In this document: positions 441 through 53,544 of the stretch, piece after piece | Layout of the letters: each line of letters begins with the position of its first letter | Numbering within the stretch: the first letter of the stretch is position 1 | DNA from: Tetrahymena thermophila SB210 | Taxonomy: Eukaryota; Ciliophora; Oligohymenophorea; Hymenostomatida; Tetrahymenidae | Reading direction: 5' to 3' | Assembly (NCBI RefSeq): GCF_000189635.1 | Contig: NW_002476500.1 | Coordinates: 1 to 64,000, forward strand | Length of the DNA stretch: 64,000 bases | The notes under the pieces: model-generated | Told to the model about the DNA's origin: nothing | The model's input: only the letters and a program-made list of their open reading frames with translations | Databases searched by the model: none | Made by a program: the position numbers and the translations under genes

Positions 441-991
441 ATTTAATTAAATTGATAATGATGCTATTTAATCTTTAGGGTCTTCTTTAGTAAGTTGTAA
501 GAATCTTAAATACTTGCTTCTAGACCTGAAGTAAAAAATAAATTTATATTTTTAATCTTTTTTTTGCTTATATCTTAATGAAAAAATGTAAAAAATAAAT
601 AAATTAATAGGAGTAATCGCATTCGTAATTAGGGAGCTATAAGTTTTGGCACTATTTTATCAGGCTGCAATAAACTTTTAGTTTTGATTCTTTACCTCTA
701 GTAAAATATAATCAATTTTTTTTATATATGAAGAAAATTCAACTTTTTCATTAAAAATTAAATTATTTATATTACTTTTTCTTATGATTACCTTTTCCCA
801 ACATTAGTACTTTTGAAATTATCTATCTATCTCTGACTTTCATTTTAAATTAAAAAAATAATTTGATATTAATATTTAATTTATTAATAACATAAAGCAA
901 TAACAATATTGTAGATGCAAAGTAAGTAAAGAAAATAAGTGGAAAGCTCTATAAAACTAAAAGATTAGTGAACAAATAATTTAATTTTTGA
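441..991 (+). CDS. 3' part of a multi-exon leucine-rich-repeat protein gene
   Basis: Three exons are visible: 441-530, 611-700 and 898-991. The first two are exactly 90 nt, are preceded by AG and followed by GTAAAA, and all junctions are phase 2. Each 90-nt exon encodes one LRR (FNQIDNDAIQSLGSSL then VSCKNLKYLLLDL; SNRIRNQGAISFGTIL then SGCNKLLVLILYL). The last exon starts NNNIVDAKQ and ends with a basic KTKRLV tail and TGA at 989-991, matching the end of the neighbouring gene at 3822. TAA/TAG are read as Gln. LRR proteins of this type usually act as protein-binding scaffolds; no specific partner can be inferred. The 5' exons must lie left of the window or in unrecognised form. The reading is supported by exon length, splice sites and frame together; expression is unknown. 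Confidence 0.72.
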
Positions 992-1591: not shown

Positions 1592-3822
1592 ATGTTATAA
1601 TAGTATATTTAGTTTAATAACTTGCAAGAAGTAAACTATTTACTTTTTTATTATAACTTTTCTTAATTTTTATTTTTCATAAAAAAGTTTTTAAACTCAT
1701 CTCTTGAATCTCATACTTTCGTTTAAATTAATCTTAGGTAATTCTTTATTATTTTTATTTCTATTTTTCAGTTATTATTTTTTTATTTTTAGCTAAAAAT
1801 TTCCTTTTATTATTTTACTTTAATAAAATTATTATATTCTTTTTTTTTAAATTTAAAGTTACAAATAAATTTATCCAGTCGAGGCTTCAATATTAGGTTC
1901 TAGCTTATAAAAATGTAAAAATCTCTAAAATTTGACACTTTTACTTGAGTAAAAATAAATTTTATTAAATATCTTGAAGTAAGTTCTTCAAAAAGAGAAT
2001 AAAAAATGCTTTAATTAACTAAATTTAAATTATTTGGCAAATTTATAATAGTTTATTTGAGGTTTCAATCACTTTTTTATTTTCTACCAACTTATATTTA
2101 TAATTTTTCTTTTAAATAAAAAAAATTCTAAATAAATGATAGCTCGAACTATGTTGGTGATTATGGAATATAAAGTTTAGGTACTTCTTTGGCAAAATGC
2201 TCTAGTATCTTACACTTGACTCTTTTCATAAGGCAAAATTATATTTTTTGCATTTTTATTTTTAATTATTATTGAATAAAAATTATTTTTATTTTTTTTA
2301 ATTGCTTTCTTTTTTCAAACTTTAATTTTAATAAAATTATTTCTTTATTTTAATAGAAATAACAAAATTGGGGCATAAGGAGCATTAGATTTGTGCTATG
2401 GTTTGGCTTGCTGTTATAAACTTTAGAGCTTGGATCTCAATTTTAGGTAAAATTTTAGAGTTTTTATAATATTAGTTAGAAAGAAAAATGTTTATTATTA
2501 TGATTGATAGCCTTAATTTAACAAAAATTTTTTCTTTTTAACATTTAATTTATTTTAAAATCAATTTTGATGATTGTTTTAACCATTTTCTTATCATATT
2601 TGTTAATAAATAAAAATAATAATTTTATTATAAATTAAAAGCTTTAATTAAATTGATCTTTAGTGGAAAAAAGACTTATTTTCTGCTTTAACAGATTTCA
2701 CTTTTGTTTCAAATCTGACCCTGGACTTTTCGTAAAATAAATACTTATTTTATTATATTTCTTTCTTTTATTTTACTGAAACATAAAATAATAAATATAA
2801 AATGATTTATTAAAGTTTAGTGAAATTTTTATTGTTTCCTTGATTTATAATTTAAAATTTTTTCTTGTTGTAAAAAAATTAATTTCTTAAGTCAAAATAA
2901 AACTATAAAAAAGTAATAACTAAATTGATCCATAAGGAGTAATAAATTTGGGTCGCTCTTTGGTAAAATGTGTTAATCTCCAAGGCTTAAATCTGCTTAT
3001 TAAGTAAAAATTTTTTATTTTGTTGCTTAATTACTATTTTTTAATAAATAAAACTTATTTTGAAGTCTAACTTTATATCAAAATAAATCATAAAATCAAG
3101 AAAAAATAAATGTCTCGAAAATTAATTAATATCTCAAAAAAATTTTAAATATTAAGCAAAATCTTTTTTTGCCTTAATTTTAATTAAAAATAACTACTAA
3201 TAGCAAAATAAATTAATTGAGTGTTTTATTATATAAATGCAAGTTTAAAAAACTAATTATGCATTTATTTAAGTAAATTTAGTGCTAATTAAAATAAAAA
3301 TAAAAAGCTTTTCAATTATTAATTTTTCAGTATTTAACTTTAGCTTAAATTTTCATTTTAAATGATAATTAATTTTTATTTTTTTTATTAAATACAAAAA
3401 TTCATTTTTTTAAAATGATTAAATAGTGCAAATAAAATTGGAGAATAGGGGGCATAAGGTTTAATTTCTGCTTTGCTTAATTGCAGTAAACTTTCAAAAT
3501 TATAACTTGATCTCAGGTAAATTTTATATATTTTTATTAATTGTATTAATAAATAAAACATAGTGCAACTACTTATAACAATTTAATTTATTCCTTAGAT
3601 TTAAGGTTTACATGCGTTTATTTACATTTAAATTAAATAAAATTTAACTCAGTGATTTATTTAAATTTTTATTTATTGTTTGTATATTGTCTTCAATACA
3701 ATTAAAAAATAATTTAATTTATCAATAGATTTAATGAATTTGATGGAGCAAGTATAGCAACAAATATAAGAAGAAAACTCATTAAGTTGAAAAGATTGGT
3801 TATTAAAATAATATTGTTATGA
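1592..3822 (+). CDS. Complete eight-exon leucine-rich-repeat protein, one repeat per exon
   Basis: Exons: 1592-1737, 1859-1948, 2143-2232, 2357-2446, 2642-2731, 2914-3003, 3427-3516 and 3729-3822; together 780 nt, 259 residues plus TGA. The six internal exons are each exactly 90 nt and every junction is phase 2. Each internal exon carries one LRR, for example YKQIYPVEASILGSSL, SNYVGDYGIQSLGTSLAKCS, NNKIGAQGALDLCYGLACC and ANKIGEQGAQGLISALLNC. The final exon has the capping pattern NEFDGASIA then LKRLVIKIILL. ATG 1592 was chosen because it opens exon 1 in frame with the repeats. Introns are 121-423 nt, GT-AG, except the one at 2233, which begins GC. TAA/TAG are used as Gln. Exon 1 is rich in Phe, Leu and Tyr and could hold a membrane or signal segment. 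The partner is unknown. A decayed copy lies at 10958-12327. Confidence 0.78.
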
Positions 3823-4732
3823 TTAATTTTATATAATGTGAATGTTTCACAATATATGTTATATTCTATCACTAAATTCTTAAAAATTATGTAGATTTTT
3901 ATATACTTGACACAGATAATGCAGATATTTATATAATAGATTATTCCAATTAGCAAATATATATTTTAATAATAATAATTTCATTATTTATTTTATTTTC
4001 TCCTTTAATAATTTCTTTACTCATGAAAATTTTGTCAAGTTATTTTATTATGATTTCAATACAATTTTAAGTATGATTTTGATTTAACTAAGCTTTAATT
4101 AATTAATAATCTAATTTCCCTCAGTATATGATTTAAAGTATTGCTTGATTGATTTGTTTCTTTTTTGACTATAAACTAATGAAAGTATTACCCTATATTA
4201 TGAGTTTTGAAGTATGATATTATAGATTTTAATATGTAAGATTAATGAATTTAAACATAGAATTATGTCTCTATTTTAATTATTAATTATTTTATATCAT
4301 AGAATTAGTCTGTTGGCGATAGTAATGTAGTAGAGATGTATGTACCTTCTAGTATATATTAAATTCTAATTTTAGTGAAGGTTATAGGAAGAAGATATGT
4401 TTGACTTTATTTTATAATTTATCATGTGTATATAAAATATTTATGTGGTATTACTTTTTTTATATAGATCGATTGAAAAAGTAATTATTTTATAATATAT
4501 CATCGGAAAAAATGATTTACAAAACTAGAATATTTTCCTGAAAGTTATCCATTTTATAAATTTTTTATTATCTCCATATCCAATTTAAAATTTATTACAT
4601 AATGATAAGTGATTAAGATATATTCTATGTAAATTAAGGTATAATATAAATAGAAAAAAATATACATTTTTCTAATTTTTTCAATACTTTATTAATTATT
4701 TTCCTTCTCTTTCTAAAGTAAATCAATTCTTC
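3823..4732. other. Intergenic DNA downstream of the LRR gene
   Basis: No gene is recognised here. The part from about 4000 to 4720 has fewer homopolymer runs than its surroundings and one plus frame stays free of TGA from about 4290 to 4530, but with a single stop codon such a length is expected by chance and no motif is visible. Confidence 0.4.
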
Positions 4733-5164: not shown

Positions 5165-7920
5165 AATGATTATCAGTAAATATATAAAATATCAGTGACT
5201 ATTTTTGCTACATTCAAAATAGAAGTATAAAGGGGATAATTATCTTTTTCTTATTTGATTAATTTACTTGAGAATTTAATAATGCTGATTTTTATTTGTG
5301 AATAAGCTAATTAGAAATTAATTCAACTACATCAAAATTGACTTTTATTATGAAGCACGATCAATTTTTAAAAGTCTGAAATATAAAATAGTTAATATTT
5401 CTTTGATCAAATTTTGAAAATGTTTATTTAATTATTAATCATTACACATTCATTTCATAAATATTTTTTACCTCGAACTTTATTAGAAATTGTTAATTTC
5501 TTATATGACTAGTAAATACATGAATGTATTTTTTAATTAATAGATAAGATTTACTCAGAATTTAGAAATTGGTAAATTATTTGATCTTTTAGTTATGTTA
5601 GATAATTTAAATTCATTTGAAAGATCTAATCCCTACTTCATTTTGAATACAAAAATAACTAAAAAATATTTTAAATAGTTAGTTCTCTTAAAATATATTT
5701 TAATTTGTTAAGAGGTTAAGAGAAAGCTAATTTGTTTAAAAGTATCTAGTCTTTCTTTTTGTACTTTATAAATATATGCGATTTTGATTGATCTATCCCT
5801 TCAGAAATATTTTTTCATAAAGAAATATGACTAGTAAATACATGAATGCGTTTTTTAATTAATAGATAAGATTTACTCAGAATTTAGAAATTGATAAATT
5901 ATTTGATCTTTTAGTTAAGTTAAATAATTTTAATTCATTTGAAAGATCTATCTATTCCCTACTTCATTTTGAATACAAAAATAACTAAAAAATATTTTAA
6001 ATAGTTCGTTCTCTTAAAATATATTTTAATTTGTTAAGAGGTTAAGAGAAAGCTAATTTGTTTAAAAATATCTAGTCTTTCTTTTTGTACTTCATTTGTA
6101 TAAATTTATGAGATTTTGATTGCTCTATCCCTTCAAAAATATTTTTTCATAAAGAAATATGACAAGCTTACATTTATTTAGCCTTTTCAGTTATGTATAA
6201 TATCTATTGACCAGTGATTTTCAAGCCAATTTATGATATTATTTTTTGATAAAATTATTTTTACAAAATTATACGCAAAGCTTACACATATCTAAACATT
6301 TAATTAATCTTAATTAAGATACCATTAGTAGGTAATTTATTTAATGATGTAAAATAATATCTATTTTTTTAATTTGTTTATATACTGTAAATATTAAAAA
6401 TCAACAAATATCTTATCTTCAGGATTTTAATATTTCACTATTTCCTAAGTACTGTAGCATCTATTTTTTTTCTCCATTTTTTATTGTGTCAGAGCACACT
6501 TTTCTTTATATATAATGAGTTAAGTAATGAATAGTTAGTAATGTACTTTTTTTTAATCATAAATGGTTCATGAAAAATAATATTTCATATTAATAGACTC
6601 ATATATTTTAGTTAAGTCAACATTTTTTGAAAAAAGAAAAAAGCGTTTTAAAACTTTTTGGATGAAAAAATCAACAAAAAATTGTAGGGTAGTTAGTAAT
6701 TAATTAGTGTAAATAAATACAAACTAAAAATAGATCAAAAGATTAATAAAATTAATAGCAAACATATTTTGATATGAAAACTAAATTATGGGTATTTTAA
6801 AACTAACTCAAAATCTACTATATTTACATACCTTTTTTTTAATTTAAAGTAAGAATATGTTTTCTAAAAAATTTAAATATAATATTAAGAGATTCTAGTT
6901 TTTTTTAAAGAATATTCTTCTTAAAAAGCCTAATTTATTTATATATTTTTGTTTATAAAATCTAATATTTAATTAAGGACACAAAAAATCTGTAGATAAA
7001 AAGAGTGGTCAATAGCATTAATACATATTAAACATATAATTTATATTGAAATACATGAAATTTTATGTGAAAATCTTACAAAGAATTTTTTAGATTTATG
7101 AAAATTAATATTTTCATCTACCATCTATTTTTTTATGACTTACTTTTGATTTGGGAATAGCATACAAAATTATTTTAAATTTATAAATAAATATTTATAA
7201 ATTTTAAAAAAATAATAGTTAATGTTTATTTGATTTAACTTTGAAAATGTTAAATAATTATTTATCATTACACTATCATTTAATAAATATTTTTTTCACT
7301 CAAACTACTTTATTCAAAGTTATAAATTTGTTATGTTATTTGTAAACTCATGAATATACTTTTGAATTAATTATCAGAATTCAGAAATTGATAAATTATT
7401 TGATCTTGTAGTTATGTTAGATATTTTTAAAGATCTATTCCCTAATTCATTCTGAATAGAAAAATAACTAAAAAATATATTAAGTAAATTTGTTGTCTTA
7501 AAATGTATATTATTTTGTTAAGAGAAAATCAATTTATTTAAAAATATGTTGTCTTTTTTGAATTTTATTTGCATAAATATATGCGATTTTTATTCCTCTA
7601 TCCTTTCAAAAATATCAAAAATGTTAATAAATATTTTTTTCATAAAGAAATATAACAAGCTCACATTTATTTAGCATTTTTAGTTATATATAAAATCTAT
7701 TTATCAGTAATTATCAAGTCAATTTATGATGTTACTTTTTTTTAAAACTATACTAATAGAATTATACTCATTTGTCAAAAACTCAAACAAAAGTATAAAT
7801 TTTTTCTTTTTAATCTTACACATATCCAAAAAGTAAACTAATATTAATTAATAATTGTTACTTAAAAAAACAAAAATAACAGTGTAGTTAAGCTTGAAAT
7901 TAACTAAACCTTTGAAAAAT
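5165..7920. repeat. R1 non-coding repeat copy upstream of the first SerH gene
   Basis: This region shares long stretches with 13.6-25.0, 30.6-34.1 and 36.6-38.7 kb, for example the segment around 5500-5750 that contains ATAGATAAGATTTACTCAGA and TTGATAAATTATTTGATCTT. A head-like piece at 6513-6780 matches 12849 onward. It is diverged and rearranged, contains no recognisable coding sequence and ends near the conserved SerH 5' flank. Confidence 0.6.
5505..6160. repeat. Tandem direct repeat, two units of about 322-334 bp
   Basis: Unit one is 5505-5826 and unit two 5827-6160. Both begin ATGACTAGTAAATACATGAA and run almost base for base to CATAAAGAAATATGAC, with a few substitutions and small indels. 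The low divergence compared with other R1 copies indicates a recent local duplication inside an older repeat. Confidence 0.85.
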
Positions 7921-8602: not shown

Positions 8603-9868
8603 ATGACTATTTTAAAGTTACTAATAGTTTCGCTTTTAGTAAGCTAAATATTTGCTGTAGGTGCTGATGTTCTCTGCAGTGATACTTAATGCACTACTCC
8701 GGGTAATTGCCCAACCCCTCCTACCAGCACTCCTGCTTTGAGTTGGGGGAATGGTTTAGGTGCTGGAAGATGCGCTATTAAGTCTTGTCCTCTATCTGGA
8801 ACTTCAATTACTGGTACTTCTGATATTTATTGTCAATCTTGTCCTGGTACTCCTAACGGCAGTAACCAAGCTGTCTTTGCTAACACTGCAGGAAATGCTT
8901 GTGTGGCTTCAAGTGCAACCTGTGGTAATTCTAGACCTGCTAATACATGGACTGATGCAGATTGCCTTATATGTAATGGTAATACTGCTCAATATGCAAA
9001 TGCTTATAATTCTGGTTGCTAAGCAACTATTCCTCTTCCTGGTACTGATGTTAGTTGCACTGGTACTGGATGTGCTAGTCCTGCAAATTGCCCAACCCCT
9101 CCTACTAGCTCTCTTCCTTTGAGTTGGGTGACTGGTTCAGGTGCTGGAAAATGTGCAATTAATGCTTGTCCTCCATCTGGCACTTCAATTACTGGTGCTA
9201 CTGATCTCTACTGTCAATCTTGTCCTGGTACTCCTAACGGCAGTAACCAAGCTGTCTTTGCTAACATTGCAGGAAATACTTGTGTGGCTTCAACTGCAAC
9301 ATGTGGTAATTCTAGAGCTGCTAATACATGGACTGATGCAGATTGCCTTGCTTGTAATGGTAATACTGCTCAATATGCAAAGGCTGATAAATCTGGTTGC
9401 TAAGCAAATCCTATTCCTGGTGCTGATGTTAGTTGCACTGGTACTGGATGCGTTAGTCCTGCAAATTGCCCAACCCCTCCTACTAGCACTCTTACTTTAA
9501 GTTGGGTGACTGGTTCAGGTGCTGGAAAATGCGCAATTAATACTTGTCCTAAATCTGGAACTTCAATTACAGGTGTTACTGATCTCTACTGTCAATCTTG
9601 TCCTGGTACTCCTAGCGGCAATATATAAGCTGTCTTTGCTAACACTGCAGGAAATGCTTGTGTTGCTTCCACTGGAACTTGTGGAAATAGTAGAAATATT
9701 AACACATGGACAAATGCAGATTGCTTGGCTTGCAATGGTACAACTAATTAGTATGCTAAATCTGATAAATCTGGTTGCTAATCAACAGCTCCTTCTTCTG
9801 CTTAATCTTCATCAAACTCAATGATAATTTTAAGCTCAGTTTTATTTTTAGTTACATTCCTTTTCTGA
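8603..9868 (+). CDS. SerH-type immobilization (surface) antigen with three tandem repeats
   Basis: The 421-residue protein is expected on the cell and ciliary surface, attached by a GPI lipid. Residues 1-18 form a signal peptide (MTILKLLIVSLLVSQIFA). Three repeats of about 126 residues start at residues 20 (GADVLC), 147 (GTDVSC) and 273 (GADVSC); each has 12 cysteines and the blocks NCPTPPTS, LSW, GKCAIN, YCQSCPGTP, QAVFAN, DADCLACNG and SGC. Residues 393-421 are Ser-rich then hydrophobic (MIILSSVLFLVTFLF), fitting a GPI-addition signal. Start is the first ATG after the TATA-like site and is shared with the paralogue at 29575. Several in-frame TAA codons are read as Gln, including one that ends repeat 1. 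SerH proteins are the temperature-dependent immobilization antigens of Tetrahymena. Which antigen this is cannot be said. Confidence 0.93.
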
Positions 9869-10762: not shown

Positions 10763-10898
10763 ATATATAGAAAATGTCTAATAAAGAGGAAAAATTTCCA
10801 AAAAATTATTTTTATTTTAAAAGGTCTATGTTTTTTTAATTCTTTTATCACTTCTAAAATATTAAAAATTTCTTAATATATTTTTCGTAGAAATATTA

Positions 10899-12735
10899 TT
10901 TTTGCAAATCAATTAAGAATAATAAATAAATTTAAAATAGATCTGAAAATAAAAAAAATGTTATAATAGTATATTTAGTTTAATAACTTGCAAGAAGTAA
11001 ACTATTTACTTTTTTATTATAACTTTTCTTAATTTTTATTTTTCATAAAAAAGTTTTTAAACTCATCTCTTGAATCTCATACTTTAGTTTAAATAAATCT
11101 TAGGTAATTCTTTATTATTTAAAAGAAATATTATTTTTATTTCTTTTTTTCATTATTATTTTTTATTTTTAGCAAAAAATTTCCACTTATCATTTTTACT
11201 TTAATAAAATAATTATATTCTTTTTTTTGATATTTAAAGTTACAAATAAATTTATCCAGTTGAGGCTTCAATATTAGGTTCTAGCTTATAAATATGTACA
11301 AATCTCTAAAATTTGACACTTTTACTTGAGTAAAAATAAATTTTATTAAATATCTTTAAGTAAATTCTTCAAAAAGATAATTAAAAATGCTTTAATTAAT
11401 TTAAATTTAAATTATTTGGCAAATTAATAATAGGTTTCAATCATTTTTTTATTTTCTATTTTTCTTTAATATTATAAAATTTTTTTAAAAATGATAGCTC
11501 TAATTATGTTGGTGATTATGGAATATAAAGTTTAGGTACTTCTTTGGCAAAATGCTCTAGTATCTTACACTGACTCTTTGCATAAGGCAAAATTAAACTT
11601 TTTTTCTTTTTTATTTATAATTATTATTGAAAAAAAATTATTTTTATTTTTTTTAATTACTTTCTTTTTTCAAACTTTAATTTTAATATAATTATTTTAC
11701 ATAAGCTAAAAAAAATATTTTAATAGAAATAACAAAATTGGGGCATAAGGAGCATAAGATTTGTGCTATAGTTTGGCTTGCTGTTATAAACTTTAGAGCT
11801 TGGATCTCAATTTTAGGTAAATATTTTGAGCTTTTAAAAATATTAATTAGAAAGAAAAATGTTTTTTATTATATTGCTTAAATTTAAAAAAAATTTTTTC
11901 TTTTGAACAGTTAATTTATTTTAAAATCAATTTTGATGTTTATTTTAGCCATTTTCTTATCATATTTGTTAATAAATAAAAATAATAATTTTATTATAAA
12001 TTAAAAGCTTTAATTAAATTGATCTTTAGAGGAAAAAAGACTTATTTTCTGCTTTAACAGATTTCACTTTTGTTTCAAATCTGACCCTGGACCTTTCATA
12101 AAATATATATTTATTTTATTATATTTCTTTCTTTTATTTTACTGAAACATAAAATAATAAATTTAAAATGATTTATTAAAGTTTAGTGAAATTTTTATTT
12201 TTTCCTTGATTTATAATTTAAAATTTTTTCTTGTTGTAAAATTTCTTAAGTCATAATTAAACTATTAAAAAGTTATAACTAAATTGATCCATAAGGAGCA
12301 ATAAACTTGGGTCGCTCTTTGGTAAAATCTATTTTTTAATAAATAAAACTTACTTTGAAGTCAAACTTTATATCAAAATCATAAAATCAAGAAAAAATAA
12401 ATGTCTCGAAAATTAATTAATATCTCAAAAAAATTTTAAATATAAAGCAAAATCTTTTTTAGCCTTAATTTATTTTGTTTAAAAATAACTTCTAATAGCA
12501 AAATAAATTGAGTGTTTTATTATATAAATGCAAGTTTAAAAAACTAATTATGCATTTATTTAAGTAAATTTAGTGCTAATTAATTAATTAATTAATTAAA
12601 ATAAAAATAAAAAGATTTTAAATTATTCATTTTTCAGTATTTAACTTTAGATTAAATTTTCATTTTAAATGATAATTAATTTTTATTTTTTTATTTAATA
12701 AAAAAATTCATTTTTTTAAAATTATTAAATATTGC
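10899..12735. repeat. Direct repeat copy of 1541-3430 (duplicated LRR gene segment)
   Basis: The copy begins at AATCAATTAAGAATAATAAA (also at 1541) and ends near TTCATTTTTTTAAAATTATT (also near 3400), an offset of about 9.3 kb. Exons are close to identical while introns show many small indels. The copy ends at the acceptor region of what would be exon 7. Confidence 0.85.
10958..12327 (+). pseudogene. Broken LRR gene copy
   Basis: Exon equivalents: 10958-11103, 11240-11329, 11498-11586, 11727-11816, 12008-12097 and 12273 to about 12327. Exon 1 keeps its 146 nt and the ATG. The third exon has lost one T and is 89 nt, which brings a TGA into frame; the donor after the fifth exon reads AT instead of GT; the sixth exon is cut off by a deletion, and the last two exons are missing. 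The GC donor after the third exon is shared with the intact gene, so it predates the duplication. The other changes are few, so the copy died recently relative to other repeats here. Confidence 0.8.
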
Positions 12736-12848
12736 TAATCCAGGTATTGAAATTCCGCTGAATCGACTTTTAGGAAAAATTTTTTTTTTAATTTTAATCA
12801 CTGATATTAAAGCATCACGTTAATTAATTAAACCAATATATATTTTAA

Positions 12849-13395
12849 AAAATGAGTTAAGTAATGAATAGTTAGTAATCTACTTTTTTTTTTAAGCATA
12901 AAAGCCTCTGCTGAAAATGTAATAAATATGATAGTCAATAATAAATTCAAGGCATAAACAAATAAATTTATCATGAATTAAATAATAATCTATTATTTAT
13001 TAAAAGGTTATTTAATTTAAACCTTAGCTTCTTCCAAATAAAGAAATTTATGAAAAGTAATATCTCATATTAATAGATTCATATAATGATTTAGTAACAC
13101 AGTATTTTTGAAAAAATATATAAAGCATTTTAGAACTGTTTGGATGAAAAAAGCAACAAAAATTTTTAGGGAAGTTAGTAATTAATATAAATAAATATAT
13201 ATATACTTATAAGAGAATAATAAATTAAAAGCTAAATATAATTAACAGTAAATACATTTTGATATGAGAACCTTATTTATTTATTTATAAATTTCATACT
13301 TTTTTTATTCAGGATTAGATATTTATTTATTATTATTTTATCTAAAATAAATTTTATAATCTTGAATGAGCATTTTACAACTTATTAACTAACTT

Positions 13396-13461
<66 letters not shown>

Positions 13462-18640: not shown

Positions 18641-19049
18641 AAATCAATACACAAATGAAAAATATAGTTAGTTAGTTAGCTTCAAAAATTTTCTCTACTA
18701 TATTCTTATTCTCTGAGATCGATTTTATCGATTAGCTTTAAATTTGAATCGAAAATAAGTTGGTTATCAAGAAAAAATTTATGTGGAAAGTCTTCAAAAA
18801 TACATAATATCCATTCATTTTTTAATAAAAAATACACTATATATTATCAATTAATCAAAAATTATGGGTTTCTCAAAAATTTTATTGCTTCTATGTTTTC
18901 AAATTTTTTTTCTTCAGAAAATAAGGTTTTAATAAAATTTGCTTAATTATGGAGGATTTAGAGTATTTTTGATTGTCTTTCTTTGTTCTTATATATTTTT
19001 TTATAAACGAATATCAAATCATCACTTTTATTATTAAACCAATAATATT
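18641..19049. other. Unique spacer between R1 units 2 and 3
   Basis: About 400 bases without a clear match elsewhere in the window. It contains GAGATCGATTTTATCGATTA near 18716, a small palindrome. No coding sequence is recognised. Confidence 0.45.
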
Positions 19050-19557
19050 TTAAAAAATGAGCTAAGTAATGAATAGTTAGTTAGTAATCCACTTTTTCTT
19101 TAAGCATTAAAATTTCTGCTGAAAATGCAATAAATATGATAGTCAATAATAAATTCAAGGTTTATATAAATAAATTTTTATGAATAATAATCTGTAATTT
19201 ATTAAAAGGTTCTTGATGGTAAACCTAAGTATCTTCCAAATAAAGAAATTTATGAAAATTAATATTTCATATTAATAGATTCATATATTTAGTTGTGCCA
19301 CTTTTTTTGAAAAAAGTATAAAGCATTCTAAAAACGTTTGGATGTAAAAAGCAACAAAACATTTTTAGGGTAGTTAGTAATTAATATAAATAAATACTTA
19401 TAAGGGAATAATAAATCAAAAGGCAAATATAATTAACAAAAAATACATTTTGATATGAAAGCTTTGTTTATTTATAGATTTCATACATTTTTTATTCAGA
19501 ATTATATATTTATTATTATATCTAAAATAACTATTATAATCTTGAATAAGCATTTTA

Positions 19558-19558
<1 letters not shown>

Positions 19559-19604
<46 letters not shown>
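19559..19604. repeat. (AACT)n microsatellite
   Basis: About 11 copies, at the position equivalent to 13396-13463 in unit 1. Confidence 0.95.
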
Positions 19605-21156: not shown

Positions 21157-22322
21157 ATAACACTCTTTTAGATTTATGAAAATTTATACATTACCTACCA
21201 TCTTACTTACTTACTTTTCATATTTTTTTAAAAACGAACAAATTTATAAAATTATTTTAAATAAAATTAAATAATAATCCATAAATTTTCAAAAAAATAT
21301 TAAACATCTTTGATTTGAATTTTGAAAATAAATGTCTATTTTAATTATTCATTATTACACATTCATTCATAGATAAAAAGCTGCAAATTTTTTATAATCT
21401 GTAAATTCATGAATATATTTTAAAATCAATTGAAACTATTTACCCAGCCAGAATTTAGTAATCAATAAATTATTTGATCTTGTAATTATGAGCTAATTTA
21501 AGTAGATAAAAAAGTATTTGATCATTAAATTAAATTTGAAAGGTCAATTTCTTATTTCGTTATGAGTTGAAAAATAACTAAACATCTTTTTGAAATGCTG
21601 TCTTATAATATATTTTATTATTTTGTTGAAAGAAAACTAATTTAGTTAAAAATTTGTAGTCTTTTTTTGTATTTTATTCTAATAAGTGTGTGGTTTTGAT
21701 TCTTTTGTCTCTTCTAAATGTTAAAAAAATATCTTCATATATTTTTAGTAAAGAAATAACAATACTACATTTATTTAGGATGTTTCGTTATGTATAATAT
21801 CTATTACTAGTGATTGTCTAGTTTAATATATGCATGATATTACTTTTTTAATAGTATATTTACAGAAATACCCACATTATCAAAAACTCAAATAAAATAA
21901 TTAAATTTTTTCTTTCAAAGCTTAAAAACATCTAAAAAATCTACAATCTTAATTCAGAAAAAATAATTAATTATTACAAATAAGAGTTACAGTGCAGCTA
22001 AGCTTGTTTATTTGCTTGCTTGCTTGAAATCAACGAAAGATATGAAAAATCCAATTTTGAGAAGTTTTGTTCTTTTTTATACAAATATATATATTTAGTA
22101 ATATTTTTATATAAATATAAAAGCTCTAGCTGACCCAAGCTAATCTTTATTTTTAAAATGCTTGAATTTAAGAAAAAATAAAGTAATTAATATAAATAAA
22201 TAAATAAATACTTATAAAAGAATAATAAATCAAAAGGTATATATAATTAACAATAAATACATTTTAATATGAAAGCTTTATTTATTAATATGCTTCATAC
22301 TTTTTTTATTCAGAATTAGATA

Positions 22323-22429
22323 AAGAATAGCAATGACTTGTGAGAAATAAAAAATGTCATAAGTCAAAGCAATTTATTTTTTTTAGAGAGCAAATTACTC
22401 TTTATTAATACTTAGTAGTTTTTGAGATA
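22323..22429. mobile_element. 107-bp insertion flanked by GATA duplication
   Basis: Relative to units 1 and 3 (CAGGATTAGATATTTATTTA near 13310), unit 4 has extra bases bordered by GATA at 22319-22322 and 22426-22429. The insert has no clear terminal inverted repeats, so the element type is unknown; a 4-bp target duplication is only suggestive. Confidence 0.5.
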
Positions 22430-24359
22430 TTTATTTATTTATTATTTATTTTATCTAAAATAAATTTTATAATTTTGAAAAAGCATTTTATAGCTAACTA
22501 ATTAACTAACTAACTAACTAACTATTTTTGATACATTTTTTTGTTTGTTTTAATTTAAGGTAAAAATTTGTAATCTGAATTTCTACTGATTCTATAAAAT
22601 ATGAATATAATAACAAGAAACCTATTTTTTATGTAAATCTAAATGATCTATTATTTTAACCATTTATATTGTTATACAAAATGAAAAGGCACGTATACTT
22701 GATTAATAAGAATTTTAATTAATTTTTCTTTAAAAATATTTTATTTGCTAATAAACATCTCATCTCATTTATTTGTTATTATTTAGAAATTTGAAAAATC
22801 TAATAATTTTGAAAAGATTATTTAGATGACTATTTGATTATTTAGAACAATTATCACTTAAAGAAAATAACTCAGAAATATCTAAATGCTCTTGCTTGCT
22901 TACTAACTTTCTTTATATAAGCATTTCAAAATTATATTAAAATAAATACCACTAATTTGTAGATTTCAATTAATTAATTATTCGAAATAGAAAATATCTT
23001 TTTTCTTTTCTCCAAATGAAAATAGCTAAGTCTACAAAATTTAATATGAGAATACCTTAATTTTTTTTCAACTCAGTAAACAAATACCTAAAATTTATAA
23101 GTAAAGTATGTTTGTAAAATATTTGAAAATACACAAGCGTATACAGAAAAAAGATATTTTAAAGAAAAAATAAAATATGGATAATTAATAGAGGTAGGAT
23201 AAAAGTTAATATTTTTAAAAATTAATGGGAAAGTCTGTCTAAACTATTTGATATTTGATTTTAGATTATCATTCATTTTTATTAGATAAAAGACTAACTT
23301 ATAATTTAAAAAAATGAATATTTTGCTTAATTAGCTTTCAAAGAAATAAGCATATATAACCAAATTTTCAAAATTTGAAAATCATTGAAAGAGTATAAAT
23401 AAAAAATATTTTCTTCTAAATAATTTCTGTTGAAATTATTATATTTGATACTTTCTATTATTCTTAAAACTAATTTAGATTGACTAACAAATAAGATTAA
23501 ATTAAAATACGATTGATTAATTTACAACTGAATTCTGAAGTTGAATTCTAATATAACCTTGAATAAAAATTCAAATTATTTATATGAATAAATGCATGTT
23601 TTACAATTTAAAAAAATAATTATTTTTTCATTTCCTTTCTAAAAAAGCTTTAAATTTGAATAATTTATCTATCATAAAATGATAATTGCTGACCACTTAG
23701 TAAATAATAAAAATACAAAAACTCAAAATAAATCCATAATTGTCTTCTTATTTTTATGTGATTATCTGATTTATAAATTTATATTTGTGAATGAGCTTAT
23801 TAGAAATTAATTAATTCACCAATATCAAATTGAATTTTCCTTATTATGGAATATTAATTTTTAAAGTCTACAAATTGTATTATCTTTGCTGAATTATTAA
23901 TTGGCTAAGTATTTACATTACAAATCAATCTATTTTAATTTATAAACTTCTCAAGATATTTTACTCTCTGTAAATCTAAAAAAACTACTTTCTTGCTAAA
24001 AACACACATTCATATATATATTTCTACTTATTTCATATTTTTTTAAGATTTTGTGTCTTTATTTTCAAAATAAAAATTTTGTATTCTTGAAGGCAGAAAA
24101 TTATATATTTTTTATGAATGAATTTACTATGATTTTTCTTTCTAATTGAACTTTCTTTTATTTACAGTAGCTTGAACTAATTGAGGTGGTTAAAAACTTA
24201 CATTCAAAAAATTAATAATTACATTAAAACTCAACAAATAATTTGATGCGGAAATCTTAAAAATACTTTTTTAGATTTATGAAAATTAATATATTACCTA
24301 CCTACCTACCATCTTAAAAATAAATAATAATCCATCCATAATTTTTGAAAAGATAATAA

Positions 24360-24360
<1 letters not shown>

Positions 24361-24439
<79 letters not shown>
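24361..24439. repeat. (GTTA)n microsatellite
   Basis: About 20 perfect copies of GTTA with no match at the same place in the other R1 units. Confidence 0.95.
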
Positions 24440-29574: not shown

Positions 29575-30063
29575 ATGACTATTTTAAAGTTATTTATTGC
29601 CTCACTTTTAGTAAGCTAAATATTCGCTACACAAGGTGCTGATGTTGCTTGCACTAGTTCGTCATGCGCAAATTCTGGAGTTTGCCCAGCTGTTCCAACT
29701 GCTCCTACTGGTTTGAACTGGGTAAATGGTAGTAGTGGAAATTGTGCCATTAATTCATGTCCTGCAAGTACTTCATCAGGTCTTACTGGTGCTTCTGATC
29801 TCTTCTGTAAATCTTGTCCTGGAACTGCTAATGGCTCAGTTCAAGCCGTCTTTGCTAATACTGCATTAACTGGTTGTGTTGCTGCAAGTGCAACTTGTGG
29901 TAGTACTAGAACTGCTAATTAATGGACTAATGCCGATTGCCTTGCCTGTAATGGAACTAGCGCCTAATATGCTAAGTCTGATAAATCTGGTTGCCAAGCA
30001 ACAGCTTTTTCGTCAATTATAATTTTGAGCTCAGTTTTATTTTTAATTTCATTCCTTTTCTGA
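29575..30063 (+). CDS. SerH-type immobilization antigen with a single repeat
   Basis: A 162-residue surface protein. The signal peptide MTILKLFIASLLVSQIFA is almost the same as in the gene at 8603. One repeat, residues 21-140, starts GADVAC and carries the family blocks (LNW, GNCAIN, FCKSCPGT, QAVFAN, NADCLACNG, KSGC) with all 12 cysteines. Residues 141-162 form a short hydrophobic GPI-type tail (IIILSSVLFLISFLF). Three in-frame TAA codons encode Gln. It has the same ends as the three-repeat paralogue but only a third of the ectodomain, so it may be a natural short form or an ancestral single-unit gene; the frame is fully open, so nothing marks it as broken. Whether it is expressed, and under which condition, cannot be seen. 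Confidence 0.9.
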
Positions 30064-34750: not shown

Positions 34751-35281
34751 ATGAATAAATTATTATTACTTACAATTTTCTTAGGTATAGTTGGATATTG
34801 CACTGCTTTAGATTGTGCTACCGGTGCTTCTACTCAAGACAATATCACCTGTTATTGTGCTCATGGATATTATGGTACTGATGCTTCAAAAGGTTAAACA
34901 TGCTAAAGATGCCCTGATAACTCTACATCTACTTCTGGTTCAGCTAACACCGGTCCTGGTATTAATATTGGAGCTTGCAATTAATGTGTTAATGGTTACT
35001 ATGTTACTGCTGTTGCTAATACTGCTAGTTCCGGAACTGCTGTTTAATGTTAATAGTGTCCTGCTAACTCTACAACTTCTTCAGCTATGTCAACTGTTGG
35101 TTTTTGTACTTGTTATGATCCTAATGCTGCCCCCTTAAGCTCATCAGTTACTACTTGCGCTTGCAAAAGTGGATATAAGGGTACTCCCACTACAACTGCA
35201 GGAAGTGCTTCAACATGTGTTGCAAACTCTGTTATTCTTAGCATTTTTGCTGCTTTATTATCTTTAGTTTTCCTTTTTTGA
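34751..35281 (+). CDS. Cysteine-rich GPI-type surface antigen, second family (block A)
   Basis: A 176-residue protein. Residues 1-19 are a signal peptide (MNKLLLLTIFLGIVGYCTA). The mature part carries paired cysteines: CYC at 34-36, CQRC 51-54, CNQC 76-79, CQQC 100-103, CTC 119-121, CAC 136-138 and a last Cys at 156, with Gly/Tyr (HGYYGTD, NGYYVTA) after the first pairs. Residues 159-176 are hydrophobic (SVILSIFAALLSLVFLF), fitting GPI addition. This CXXC-spaced layout resembles ciliate immobilization antigens such as those of Ichthyophthirius more than SerH; that is family-level resemblance, not an identification. TAA/TAG Gln codons occur at several places. The paralogue at 39095 shares the C-terminal third almost exactly while the N-terminal two thirds differ at about one residue in four. 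Confidence 0.88.
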
Positions 35282-36320
35282 AAAAAATGGACATTTAAAA
35301 AAATACTCTATTAAAATAATCAATTTTTTTATTGCCTGTAATTAATTTAATTTTTATGTTTTTATTCAGATGATTTGAGAATTGATAAGAAGAGTTTTAA
35401 TAAATAATTTCCATTAAATATATGATATAATATTAAGATTATTATTTTTTAAAATTAAAATATTAAATAATTTTACTATTTTATTTTTTTATTTTTTGAA
35501 ATTCAATTCCACATAAATTATATTAACAATCTTTAACATTAGGATATTATGTATTTATTTTCTAATTTTTCCTTTTCCATCATTCAGGCTTTTTAATAAA
35601 CTTTCCTGGTAAATATTGAATAAATCAAAGAGAAGAAGGAAGAAAAATAGTAAACATATTTTAACTTAATTTTTGAGAATATGAAAAAAAAATTACATTA
35701 AAATATGTATTGAGAAACTTCAAATAAATATGTTTGTTTTTACCTACCTTTTCTTTTATTTACAAATCTTATTAATTTTTAACTATTGACTCTATTATTA
35801 ATAAATTAAATATGGAATCAATGAATGAGTTTTAATAATCAAAAAGAAAAATTGTTTTTTGTATTTTATTTAAAAGTGATAAATATGTTTCAACTTTTTA
35901 TCTTCCTTCCTTCAATATTTCATTTCTGGTTATTAAATTAAATTTATAATTTTAAAGAATAAAAATGGTAGAAAGATAATTGACATATAAATATGCTAAT
36001 AAAATACAATAACCAAATAAGCTATCATTCTTATTTTTTATTAGATTTTATTAAATTTTGAGCAGTCAGTTAAAAATAATTTGAGTCACTAAGAAACAAA
36101 AAAAGAAATGAAGAAATCAAAAGAAAATTTGTGATGACTAATTCAGTACAATAAATATTACACAAAATATCTTTAAAATACAATAATTTTTTATCATTTC
36201 AAATAATATTTAAAATGTACTTGTTTTTATCTTAAATTTGTGCATAAATCTTTAAATCTAAATTCTATTTATTTTGGAGATTTACTATGTATATTTATTT
36301 ATATATAATAGAATTTTTAC
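35282..36320. other. 3' flank of block A gene
   Basis: Homologous to 39629-40488 up to about 36165. No gene is recognised. The conserved bases TTATTGCCTGTAATT and TTCCTTCCTTC could belong to the 3' untranslated region. Confidence 0.5.

Positions 36321-36364
<44 letters not shown>
36321..36364. repeat. (TTAG)n microsatellite
   Basis: Eleven copies of TTAG between duplicated blocks A and B. Confidence 0.95.
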
Positions 36365-36554: not shown

Positions 36555-39500
36555 TTTAAATTTACACATAAAATTTAACAAATAATTATTTTTTTCAATT
36601 AAGTCGCGTCCTGTTGCCAATATCTATTATATCATACAAATAACTTAAATACCAGAAATTTGAAGAAATAAAATATTATTTAATTAATTAATTGATCAAT
36701 AAAAATAGAAAATATCTTTTTTATTTTCTACTGTTTTCTTCAAATGAAGACAAATTAGATTATATTATTTAATATGAGGATATAATAAATACCAAAAATT
36801 AATATTAAAATATCTTTGTTACATATTTGAAAAGATACAAGTATATATACAAAAAATATATTTTAAAAAGTAAAGAAAGGTTTCATAATTAATTAAAAGA
36901 GTACCCTTTTATTTTAAAAATGGATAATTTAATTAGTTAGTAATATGTACAGGTAACTAAATTTTTTAATTTATAAATTATGGAAAGAGTATAAATAAAA
37001 ATATTTAGTTTTAAATAATATCTGTTGAATTTGAAATATTTAATACTTTCAATAGTTTCTAAAGCTAATTTAGATTGATTAACACATAGTGACTAATTTT
37101 TGTTACAATTAAAATAGAAGTATAAAAGGGATAATAATATTGTTTTTATCTTATTAAGTTACTTGAGAATTTAATAATGATGATTTGTATTTGTGAATAA
37201 GTTAATTAAAAATTAATACAACATATATCTAAATCAAATTTCCCTTCTTAAGCACTCACTATTGGTTTTTAACAGTCTAAAAATTTTTAGTATCTATGCT
37301 AACTAATTGGTCAACAATTTACAAAATCATTTTAATTTATATATTGTTTGAAGAAATCTTTCTATCTTTAATCTAAAAAAACTTTTTTTTTACTAAAGTC
37401 ACTCATATAATTATCATATTTTTACATTTTAAACTTTTTTTCTTGATTTTACTAAAAAACTAAATTCTTAAAAGCTGAAAAAATAAATATTTAATTAAGT
37501 ATTAGATTTTAGAAATTTTCTATTTACTTGCAAAACTCTTCTTAAAAAGCTTAATTTATATTTTTGTGTTAAAATCTAATATTTGATTTACTACACAGAA
37601 AATCTGTGGATGAAAATGTGGTTAATAGCTTTAATACAAGTAAATTATATAATTTATATTTAAATAGAACAGATAATCTATATGCGAAAAATCTTATAAC
37701 CAACTTTTTTAATATATGAAAATTAAAACTGACCTTTATCAGCCATTTATTACTTTTCATATTTGAAATAAAATACAAAATTGTTATAAAAATAAATAAT
37801 AATTTTTAAATATTCAAAAAAAAAAATGTTTAATATTTCTTTGATTGAATATTAAAAATGTTTATTTATTTATTATTTTTACACTTTCATTTCAAAAATA
37901 ATTTTGCCTCGAACTTCTTAAAAAAAAGTTGTTAATTTTTATATTACTTGTAAACTCATGAATGTATTTTTTAATTAATAGATAAGATTTACTCAGAATT
38001 TAGAAATTGTTAAATTAGTTGATCTTCTAAATTATGAGCTAATTTGCTTATTAGATAAAATGTTAGATATTTGAATTATTTTTGAAGGATCTATTCCCTA
38101 CTTCTTTCTGAAGAGAAAAATAACTAAAAAATATTTTAAGCAAATTCGTCGTCTTAAAATATATTTTATCTTATTAAGATAAAACTAATTTATTTAATAA
38201 ATTGTAATCTTTTTTGTATTTTATTTTTATAAATTTGTGTGATTTTGATTTCTCTATCCCTTAAAAAATATAAAAAAAGCTTATAAATATTTTTTCATAA
38301 GAAATATAACAAACTCACATTTAGTTAGGTATAATATCTATTTATAATAGATATTAAAGTCTATTTATGGTGTATTTTTTTTTATAAATTATATTTATAG
38401 GACTATATGGATTGTCAAAAACAGTATAAAATTATAAAATTTTTTCTTTTCAAGCTTACATATAAATCAAAAGTGAGCTAATCTTAATTAAGAAAAATAA
38501 TTATTACTTGAGAAACCCAAATTATAATGTAGTTAAGCTTGAAATTAACTAAAATATGCAAAGCCAGACTATTCGTAACATTTTTATACTTTTTAGTAGT
38601 ATTGTTATATAGTTCTAAAAACACTAGCTGACGCAAGCCGTATCTTTATTATATAATGCTTGAATTTAAGAAAATGAGCAAAAGGATAAAAGATTAAAAT
38701 TTTTTAGGCAGCATCTGAGAAAAGAGTATTCAAATTATATATATATACTGAAGAATGCTTTTTATAAATAAGAAATAACAACCTCTATATTAAGATTATT
38801 TATATTGGCATACAAATATTTATTACCATAATTTATTAAATTCATTATACCAGAATTTATTAAGTTAAATTAATTTATATTTTCCTTTCAGGTTAAGTAT
38901 TTATTTTGAAAAATAATCAGTTTTAATTAAATTTTGAAAACTGAATAATTAACTAACTCTTTAACATCCAATTTTAATGAGTAAAAAGAATCAGTCTATT
39001 TGCTAAAATTCAGTTTAAAAACTCTAGGACGGACAACCAAATTTAATATTTCATTATAATTAATAAAAAAATATTATAAACAATTATTAAAAAAATGAAT
39101 AAATTATTATTACTTGCTATTTTCTTAGGCTTAGCTGGATTTTGCACTGCTACTATAACTTGTGGTACCAACGCAATTTCTCCAGACGGTACCAACTGTT
39201 ATTGCTAACATGGATTTTATGGTACTGATGCTTCATAAGGTTAAACATGCTAATTATGCCCTAATAACACTACAACTACTTCTGGTACAACTAACACCGG
39301 TCCTAGTATTAATGTAGGAGCTTGCAATTAATGCATTAGTGGTTTCTATGTTACTGCTGTTGCTAATGCTGCTAGTCCCGGAACTGCTGTTTAATGTTAA
39401 TAGTGTCCTGCTAACTCTAACACTTCTTCAGCTATGACAGCTCTTGGCTTTTGTACTTGTTATGATCCTAATGCTGCCCCCTTAAGCTCATCAGTTATTA

Positions 39501-40488
39501 CTTGCACTTGCAAAAGTGGATATAAGGGTACTCCCACTACAACTGCAGGAAGTCCTTCAACATGTGTTGCAAACTCTGTTATTCTTAGCATTTTTGCAGC
39601 TTTATTATCTTTAGTTTTCCTTTTTTGAAAAAAATGGACAATTAAAAAAAATACTCTATTAAAATAATCAATTTTTTTATTGCCTGTAATTTATTACATT
39701 TTTATGTTTTTATGGAGAGGATTTAAGAGTTGATAAGAAGAGTATTAATCAATCATTTTCATTAAATATAAGATATAATATTAAGTTTATTATTTTAAAA
39801 ATTAAAATAAATTTCTATTAACAATTTTTAAAATTAGGATATTATATTATGTATTTATTTTTAATTTTCCCTTCCATCATTCAGGCTTTTTAATAAATAT
39901 CCTTATTAAATAATGAATAAATCAAAGAGAAGAAGGAAGGAAGAAAATAGTAGGCATATATAAATTTAATTTTAGAGAATATGAAAAAAAAAAATAATAA
40001 TAATTACAATTCAAATATATTTATTGAGAAACTTCAAATAAATATGTTTCTTTTTACCTGACTTTTCTTTTATTTATAATTCTTATTTATATTTAATTAT
40101 TGGTTATATTTAATAATAATGATAAATTAAATATGGGGTCAAAGAATGAGTTTTAATAATCAAAAATAATATATTATTTTTTGTATAATATTAAAAAGTG
40201 ATAAATATGTTTCAACTTTTTATCTTCCTTCCTTCCATATTTGATTTTTGATTGTTAAATTAAATTTATAATTGTAAAGAATTAAAATGGTAGAAAGATA
40301 AACAGGCATATAAATATTCTAATAGATTACAATAACCTGATAAACTATTTATGTCATTTTTTATTTGATTTTATTAAATTTTGAGCAGTCAGTTAAAAAT
40401 AATTTGATCACTAAGAAACAAAAAAATAAATTATGAATGCAAAATAAAATAAATTTTTGATGACTAATTCAGTATAAAAAAATATTAC
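36555..40488. repeat. Tandem duplication block B (contains antigen gene at 39095)
   Basis: Second copy of the block at 31618-36165. It begins near ACATAAAATTTAACAAATAA and ends at GATGACTAATTCAGTATA. It is about 0.6 kb shorter than A upstream of the gene. R1 sequence occupies 36.6-38.65 kb. Confidence 0.8.
39095..39628 (+). CDS. Cysteine-rich GPI-type surface antigen, second family (block B)
   Basis: A 177-residue paralogue of the gene at 34751. Signal peptide residues 1-19 (MNKLLLLAIFLGLAGFCTA); CYC 35-37, CQLC 52-55, CNQC 77-80, CQQC 101-104, CTC 120-122, CTC 137-139, Cys 157; hydrophobic GPI-type tail from residue 161. Against its partner the last 64 residues differ at six positions, whereas the first 113 differ at roughly 28, including the region after the signal peptide (ITCGTNAISPDGTN here). 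That gradient fits gene conversion of the 3' end or diversifying selection on the exposed end. In-frame TAA/TAG read as Gln. Start taken at the ATG shared with the partner, 45 nt after the conserved AACCAAATTTAATATT leader. Confidence 0.88.
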
Positions 40489-44640: not shown

Positions 44641-44735
44641 AATTAAAAACTCAAATATTTGGGGACAAATTTTTATTTTAATTAGTTTCTTCTTGCTTTA
44701 ATATTCATTTTCACTTATATGTTATTTACTTCCAA

Positions 44736-44844
44736 TATAAAAAGGTATTTTACATATATTGATTGTGTCATTTTAAATTCCAAGCCCAACTAAAATAAAT
44801 CATAATTATTAAAAATAAAATAAATAAATAAATAATTTTAAAAA
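44736..44844 (+). promoter_or_regulatory. TATA-like site and leader of block C antigen gene
   Basis: TATAAAAAGG at 44736-44745, then TTGATTGTGTCATTTTAAATT and AGCCCAACTAAAATAAATCA before the ATG. The block D gene has the same elements in the same order (TATAAAAAGG at 52705). Confidence 0.5.
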
Positions 44845-45660
44845 ATGAACAAATTCTTAGTACTTGCTACCCTATTAGCTTTAACTGGATTCACTCATGC
44901 AACGGCCCCATGCCATCCTTCTGCTTAGATAAGTCCAAAGGATAATACTAAATGTGTATGCCCTCCTGGTACCTGGGGCACTGATGGAATATCACAATGC
45001 AATCGATGTCCTGATAATAGTTTTTCCCTTATTTTTGATAATACTGGACCTAATCTCAATGTTTCAGCTTGCAATATGTGTGATTAAGGTTATTATGTCT
45101 CATTTGCAGCTACTGATAATGCTCCTGCTACTTGTACTAAATGTAGTGGAAATTCAACCCCTAAAGATCAGACAACAATTGCTAGCCCTAATGAAAGTGC
45201 CTGTAATGCTTGCATGATTAATTATTACTATGCCTCTCCTCCTTCTAAAAATTCTTTAGTCCCCACTTGCGTCTATTGCCCTCAATATTCTAATACAAGG
45301 TATTAATTGTAGTCTACCCCTGATTTTTGTACTTGCTATGACTCTGGTGCAAATGCCTTAAGTAGTACTGTTACTTCTTGTACATGCAAATCTGGTTAAG
45401 GAACTCCCGTTCAAACTTTTGGACAACCTTCAACCTGTATTCCTACTACCACTTCTAATTCTTCTTCTTCTGCTTCAAATGCTTCTAATGGTTCAAATGC
45501 TTCTAATGGTTCAAATACTTCTAATGGTTCAAATGCTTCTAATGGTTCAAATGCTTCTAATAGTTCAAATGCTTCTAATGGTTCAAATACTTAAACTGCT
45601 TCAAATGTTTTAATTCTTAGTACTTTTGCTGCTTTATTATCATTCGTTTTCATTATTTGA
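44845..45660 (+). CDS. Cysteine-rich surface antigen with Asn/Ser/Gly repeat stalk (block C)
   Basis: A 271-residue protein. Signal peptide 1-20 (MNKFLVLATLLALTGFTHAT). Cysteine pairs: CVC 37-39, CNRC 52-55, CNMC 75-78, CTKC 97-100, CNAC 120-123, CVYC 142-145, CTC 162-164, CTC 179-181, Cys 198. Residues 205-249 are a low-complexity stalk of the hexapeptide ASNGSN and variants (six to seven copies), full of N-X-S/T sequons, encoded by an 18-bp minisatellite at about 45472-45590. The last 18 residues are hydrophobic (VLILSTFAALLSFVFII), a GPI-type signal. It has one more cysteine-pair module than the genes at 34751 and 39095 but the same C-terminal FCTCYD and CTCKSG blocks. Gln is encoded by TAA/TAG at several positions. 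Family resemblance is to ciliate immobilization antigens; function beyond a surface coat is inference. Confidence 0.88.
45476..45592 (+). repeat. 18-bp minisatellite coding for Asn/Ser/Gly stalk
   Basis: Repeats of GCTTCTAATGGTTCAAAT with single-base variants, in frame with the antigen gene. The block D gene has only about two copies, so copy number has changed since the duplication. Confidence 0.9.
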
Positions 45661-52100: not shown

Positions 52101-52620
52101 CATTTCTTTGTAATGGCTATTTTTTTTTAAATTTTTAATATAAAAAGTTAAAACTTTCTTGAAAATCCTAAAGTTATCTTTGAATTTCATTATTAGGTTT
52201 CAAAAATACCTATCAAATTGAATTCATTTCTTTTTCAGAGATAAAATTAATAACTTTCTTATTTTTTCTAAAAATTAAAAGAAAATTAATATTGCTTGTT
52301 ATTCTAATTTATATTAATTTCTTTTTATTATTTATCACTGTTAAATAATATAGCGTAAGAAAATATTATATTTAATCCTATTTTTACTCCAAAATATTTT
52401 AAATAATAGAATTTAACTAAGAATAAAAATGTACTAGAATGATAGGGTAAGTTTATTTTTATATTTTAAGGAAAACTAGACCGGTAATATTAATATTAAT
52501 ATTGACTTTAAATTAATTTGCTTTACAAAATTATAATTCAGTTATTTAAGTTCATATATTAAAATATAACCATTTAAACCAATCAAATTAATTTCAAAGA
52601 TCTTTTACAAAATTTTTGAA
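49120..52620. repeat. R2 repeat in block D
   Basis: Same module order as 41500-44640, with hairpin modules near 49345, 49850, 50393, 50700 and 50845 and GATAGGGTAAG at 52441. No gene recognised. Confidence 0.7.
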
Positions 52621-52704
52621 AGTTGGGGATAAATTTTTATTTTAATTAATTTTTTTCTTGCTTTAATTTACATTCATTTTCACTTATATGATATTTAATT
52701 CCAA

Positions 52705-52830
52705 TATAAAAAGGAATTTTAGATATTGATTGTGTCATTTTAAATTCAAAGCCCAACTAAAATAAATCATAATAATTAAAAATAAAATAAATAATATAAA
52801 TAAAATAAATAAAAAAAATAATTTAAAAAA
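52705..52830 (+). promoter_or_regulatory. TATA-like site and leader of block D antigen gene
   Basis: TATAAAAAGG at 52705-52714, 126 nt before the ATG, with TTGATTGTGTCATTTTAAATT and AGCCCAACTAAAATAAATCA as in block C. The leader is longer here because of an expanded AAATAAATA run. Confidence 0.5.
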
Positions 52831-53544
52831 ATGAGCAAATTCTTAGTACTTGCCACCCTATTAGCTTTAACTGGATTCTCTCATGCAACGGTCACATGCG
52901 GTTAAGGTGCTATCATAGATCCAGGAGATAATACTAAATGCTTTTGCCCTTAAGGTTTCTATGGTGATCCACTTAAATATTGCTAATCTTGTCCTGGTAA
53001 TTCTTTCTCCCATTTTACTGTAAATAGTATCAATGTTTAAGATTGCAATATATGTAAAGATGGTTATTATGTCTAAGAAGCTGCTACTGATAAAACTGCT
53101 GCTATTTGTACTAAATGTAGTGGATTTACAACCCCTAAAGAATAAACACCAACTTCTAGCTCTAATGAAAGTGTCTGTAATGCTTGCATGGATGGATATT
53201 ATTACTTAGCTGGTCCTATTAATAATTCTTTAGTCCCCACTTGCGTCCAATGCCCTCCATATTCTGGTGTACAAGGAATTCTTTAGTCTACCCCTGGTTT
53301 TTGTACTTGCTATGACTCTGGTGCAAATGCCTTAAGTAGTACTGTTACTTCTTGTACATGCAAATCTGGTTAAGGAACTCCCATTCAAACTCCAGGATCA
53401 ACTTCAACCTGTATTCCTACTACCACTTCTAATTCTTCTTCTACTGCTTCAAATGCTTCTAATGGTTCAAATGCTTAAACTGCTTCAAATGCTGTAATTC
53501 TTAGTACTTTTACTGCTTTATTATCATTCGTTTTCATTATTTGA
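52831..53544 (+). CDS. Cysteine-rich surface antigen with short stalk (block D)
   Basis: A 237-residue paralogue of the gene at 44845. Signal peptide 1-20 (MSKFLVLATLLALTGFSHAT); CFC 37-39, CQSC 51-54, CNIC 72-75, CTKC 93-96, CNAC 116-119, CVQC 138-141, CTC 158-160, CTC 175-177, Cys 194. The stalk (residues 197-220) holds only about two ASNGSN-like units, accounting for most of the length difference. Tail residues 221-237 (VILSTFTALLSFVFII) fit a GPI signal. The stretch FCTCYDSGANALSSTVTSCT is identical to the partner, whereas residues 21-75 differ at many positions. Numerous TAA codons (for example in CGQGA and CPQGF) read as Gln. As with its partner, a surface-coat role is inferred from architecture. 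Confidence 0.88.

Follow-up and report, generated by a model that had tools for sequence, protein, structure and literature searches.

The DNA at 1592-3822 of the window (the whole stretch of 64,000 nt that was analysed) holds a row of exon-like intervals of equal length, each with the pattern of a leucine-rich repeat (LRR). It raises the question whether these intervals together form one complete gene or only look like one in AT-rich DNA, and, if the gene is real, to what class it belongs and whether it is still in working order.

Exon structure of the LRR gene

The first-pass annotation had proposed eight exons in this region, six of exactly 90 nt between a first exon of 146 nt and a last exon of 94 nt, and this model was confirmed to the base, with a TGA closing the frame (Table 1). 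AG precedes all six 90-nt exons, and GT or GC follows each of them, GC occurring once, after exon 3; over the whole model, six of seven donors are GT and one is GC (2233-2234). The seven predicted introns measure 121-423 nt, all end in AG, and phase 2 is kept throughout (seven of seven), as had been claimed. Their GC content is 10-16%, against 18-34% in the exons. When joined and translated with the ciliate code, the exons give a protein of 259 residues that ends at the TGA and in which 18 in-frame TAA/TAG codons are read as Q; intron 3 contains an in-frame TGA. Each 90-nt exon specifies one 30-residue repeat, made up of 29 full codons and one codon split across the junction. The six exons had been described as identical, which is correct for their length and phase and incorrect for their sequence, as their mutual DNA identity averages 52.5%.

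Table 1. Positions of the LRR gene, its relatives and other features in the window
Feature	Position	Strand	Description
Upstream LRR gene, 3' part	441-991	+	90-nt exons 441-530 and 611-700; 94-nt last exon 898-991
Exon 1	1592-1737	+	146 nt, ATG start, N-terminal cap; paralogue counterparts
Exon 2	1859-1948	+	90 nt, LRR; match to paralogue-trained profile
Exon 3	2143-2232	+	90 nt, LRR, with GC as donor (2233-2234); match to paralogue-trained profile
Exon 4	2357-2446	+	90 nt, LRR; match to paralogue-trained profile
Exon 5	2642-2731	+	90 nt, LRR; profile match, leave-one-out score 16.8 bits
Exon 6	2914-3003	+	90 nt, LRR; match to paralogue-trained profile
Exon 7	3427-3516	+	90 nt, LRR; match to paralogue-trained profile
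Exon 8	3729-3822	+	94 nt, C-terminal cap, TGA stop; paralogue counterparts
Tandem repeat	5503-6163		326-nt unit, two copies
SerH-type surface immobilisation antigen genes	8603-9868, 29575-30063	+	Pfam PF06873; 378-nt tandem repeats in 8603-9868
Decayed tandem copy	about 10958-12740	+	exons 1-6 (exon 6 cut short) plus introns
Dispersed-repeat copies	12735-13380, 19011-19560, 22182-22490		each adjoined by one of the first three TAAC-type arrays
TAAC-type tetranucleotide arrays	13386-13461, 19558-19604, 22494-22524, 24360-24439, 36317-36364	either	
Cysteine-rich proteins	34751-35281, 39095-39628, 44719-45660, 52429-53544	+	hydrophobic C-terminal tail; Ser/Asn-rich repeats in those from 44719 and 52429

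The 90-nt pattern is not a product of chance

Given the abundance of AG and GT dinucleotides, 90-nt intervals between AG and GT or GC will arise by chance in AT-rich DNA, and two low-GC intervals of this length that lack the LRR pattern were found (3599-3688 and 4226-4315). The spacing of the gene itself was examined with a 29-residue profile without any splice-site requirement. Its training set comprised 172 exons, taken from 20 further loci of the genome, with mild circularity, as these loci had been picked by DNA similarity to the gene (40 of 963 candidates were scored, and 20 loci scanned for exons) and their exons had been collected by means of a seed profile built from eight window exons. 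A scan of both strands of the window gave 11 matches, all on the + strand, namely the six 90-nt exons of the gene, two upstream exons and three in a second copy of the gene. AG and GT/GC flank ten of these 11 matches at a spacing of exactly 90 nt. When the window was resampled 20 times with a first-order Markov model and scanned on the + strand, no resampling reached the profile threshold, and four further resampled windows yielded no profile match. At the 20 other loci, 172 of 180 exon-like stretches were exactly AG-90-GT, the remaining eight being unspliceable at 90 nt. The leave-one-out scores of the eight window exons ranged from 16.8 to 41.1 bits, with the minimum for exon 5. An open frame of 259 codons without TGA has a chance probability of about 1.7%, which is weak evidence when taken alone. 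The recovery of six out of six exons, set against none of the 20 resampled windows, bears out the earlier statement that the regularity is beyond chance; a chance pattern is refuted by it, and its probability is practically nil.

Limits of the gene

Upstream of the gene, the + strand carries two additional 90-nt, phase-2 LRR exons (441-530 and 611-700). In principle they could belong to one longer gene, of which the eight exons would form just the 3' part. Against such a fusion stands the exon at 898-991, which is 94 nt long and in phase 2, has a family-like C-terminal sequence and ends in TGA. Since this exon can close the upstream gene, the gene at 1592-3822 is best regarded as separate; moreover, 1592-1737 looks like the first exons of paralogues. 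We consider the longer gene very improbable. The two upstream exons appear to be part of a separate LRR gene ending at 991, and profile scans from the contig start to 441 detected no additional 90-nt LRR exon.

The first exon was compared with 20 paralogous loci (L014-L033), whereby matches below 100 nt were dropped and the options at each match were sorted by nearness to 146 nt. Among the 21 matches kept, eight have a 146-nt, ATG-to-GT, phase-2 option of related sequence, five have options of other lengths only, and eight have none within the start and donor limits that were set. The count of eight out of 21 means that a 146-nt first exon exists and is not proof of its use, as a 95-nt option is present in all eight as well. 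Because the sorting favoured lengths of about 146 nt, the shared protein sequence counts as much as the length in support of exon 1. The last exon resembles eight last exons of paralogues, which are 85-97 nt long (taking the longest acceptor choice) and share a K-R-L-V motif; two more matches to this motif (L020+, L026-) were set aside, since the LRR exons there lie on the other strand.

A decayed tandem copy

A second, decayed copy of the gene is present about 9 kb away (Table 1). The region 10,890-12,739 aligns to the gene at 85% identity (query 25-1934), and the likeness stops close to where exon 7 begins. The copy has lost one base in exon 3 and has an altered donor after exon 5, and the end of exon 6 together with its donor has been removed by a deletion. 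Because its introns are retained, the copy arose by duplication at the DNA level, and a retrocopy origin is ruled out. A repeat unit that recurs at 19,011-19,560 and elsewhere is situated about 60 bp from the 3' end of the copy.

The gene and the copy differ at 12 of 505 positions in exons 1-5 and at 74 of 1159 in introns 1-6 (p 0.0004); when exons 1-5 are compared with introns 5-6 alone (23 of 559), the difference is not significant (p 0.12). The alignment has a single gap column in exons 1-5, compared with 135 in introns 1-6. Over 135 codons, with exons 3 and 6 excluded, gene and copy differ by two synonymous and seven non-synonymous changes, a dN/dS of about 0.9. When exon 1 was set against eight paralogues, the ratio was 0.53-1.13, and neither of these small comparisons shows purifying selection.

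The GC donor and the state of the gene

All 172 sampled paralogue exons have a GT donor, whereas exon 3 of the gene is followed by GC. Since the gene and the decayed copy both carry GC at this site, the GC donor probably predates the duplication. The first-pass annotation had also supposed that repeats could be lost by exon skipping, and exon 3 might be a cassette which, through its GC donor, is left out of some transcripts, giving proteins that differ in repeat number at the RNA level. Skipping of exon 3 would remove exactly one repeat with the frame intact, and would then add to the changes in repeat number already known from DNA. We regard this as improbable. Neither exon skipping nor alternative splicing is mentioned in the main text of the paper that describes such genes (Xiong et al. 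2019, PMC6564038), and among the titles and abstract beginnings listed for T. thermophila with GC-AG introns, exon skipping and alternative splicing, none dealt with these genes.

The same donor can be read in another way, as the mark of a family member that is dying: its frame would be open partly thanks to a code with a single stop, its GC donor weakened, its exon 5 drifted and the gene as a whole non-functional. This reading is compatible with the family assignment given below, and its odds are not exclusive of it. Besides the departure from the uniform GT of the paralogues, it would account for a dN/dS close to 1, albeit in a small comparison, for a tandem copy that is already broken, and for an identity among the exons within the gene that is well below that of 16 sampled paralogue arrays of at least four exons (52.5% versus 70-85%). 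On the other side, the 259 codons run without an in-frame TGA, all seven acceptors and six of the seven donors are canonical, every 90-nt exon has retained its length, and the exons have diverged less and been gapped far less than the introns. We regard a dying gene as rather unlikely.

Predicted protein

A phmmer search of the 259-residue protein against the PDB retrieved LRR chains, the best being 5irm (E 9.7e-8), labelled an uncharacterized protein in the search result, which we take to be NOD2; the ribonuclease inhibitor 1dfj had an E value of 0.066. In Pfam, the protein scored 18 bits with LRR_6 and 16.6 bits with LRR_4, under the curated cut-offs of 23.4 and 27, respectively, and 318 residues of a joined paralogue (L015) reached 50.8 bits with LRR_6. 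Both its alignments and its family mark the predicted protein as LRR-like, without a formal Pfam match of its own. With paralogue counterparts for both end exons and with aligned LRR chains, the gene looks complete under the ciliate code, as had been proposed. The encoded LRR protein is probably short, curved and of the ribonuclease-inhibitor type, and would bind other proteins; by analogy with this fold class, protein binding is the most likely role for such a short arc.

Other features of the window

Two SerH-type genes were identified in the window, SerH in Pfam being presumably a Tetrahymena surface antigen family. Four cysteine-rich proteins look like further surface antigens, to go by their composition; the ones scanned (from 34751 and 44851) had no Pfam match over the cut-off. 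Tetranucleotide arrays, dispersed repeats and a tandem duplication are listed in Table 1. Neither Rfam (at the gathering threshold) nor ARAGORN (with the bacterial code) reported anything in the window.

The genome is that of a Tetrahymena, very probably T. thermophila, in keeping with the SerH genes and the ciliate code. Its TERT locus encodes 237 consecutive residues identical to residues 405-641 of PDB 6d6v, which we take to be from T. thermophila, with one intron-like insert; the 33 aligned residues before this stretch match poorly, the query being out of frame there.

Comparison with known LRR genes

Arrays of exactly 90-bp, phase-2 LRR exons have already been published for Tetrahymena (Xiong et al. 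2019, PLoS Biol, PMC6564038). Exon shuffling is proposed there as their origin, and 1,500 of 1,874 LRR genes of T. thermophila are given as having such a 90-bp exon. Groups II and III of these genes are assigned by masking with eight repeat consensuses and have intron-length peaks of about 56 bp (group II) and about 257 bp (group III); group II is the older, and young members are pericentromeric or subtelomeric in the germline genome. The contig with the present gene is 272 kb long and carries no chromosome assignment. The same paper describes repeat numbers that vary by whole exons, for which unequal crossing over is proposed. The first-pass suggestion that repeat number could change by duplication of whole exons was therefore right, but is part of this published account.

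The gene model has six exons of exactly 90 bp, where at least three consecutive ones define the family, phase-2 introns in seven of seven cases, and exons that code for LRRs. The gene is real, was accurately read and is already known as a class, and it is very probably an ordinary representative of the LRR gene family of Tetrahymena that has 90-bp, phase-2 exons. Its plan would be that of one-repeat exons of 90 nt, preceded by a first exon of 146 nt and closed by a last exon of about 90 nt. With phase 2 at every internal junction, whole repeats can be gained or lost without loss of frame, and unequal crossing over would add or remove them in this manner. A single gene of this kind matters little; the class illustrates exon shuffling cleanly, each repeat having an exon to itself.

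With ribonuclease-inhibitor-like LRR proteins (5irm, 1dfj) the predicted product has the repeat pattern in common, and it differs from them in its number of repeats, about six to seven, and in that no domain besides these was found. With groups II and III of Xiong et al. 2019, the gene shares the genus, at least three 90-bp exons, phase-2 introns, LRRs and a variable repeat number. Within this framework the clues to its group point different ways: its exons have diverged more than those of the 16 sampled arrays, which suits the older group II, whereas its introns are longer than the group II peak and closer to that of group III. Set beside the published 90-bp-exon LRR genes, the gene is the same in all essentials, with one GC donor.
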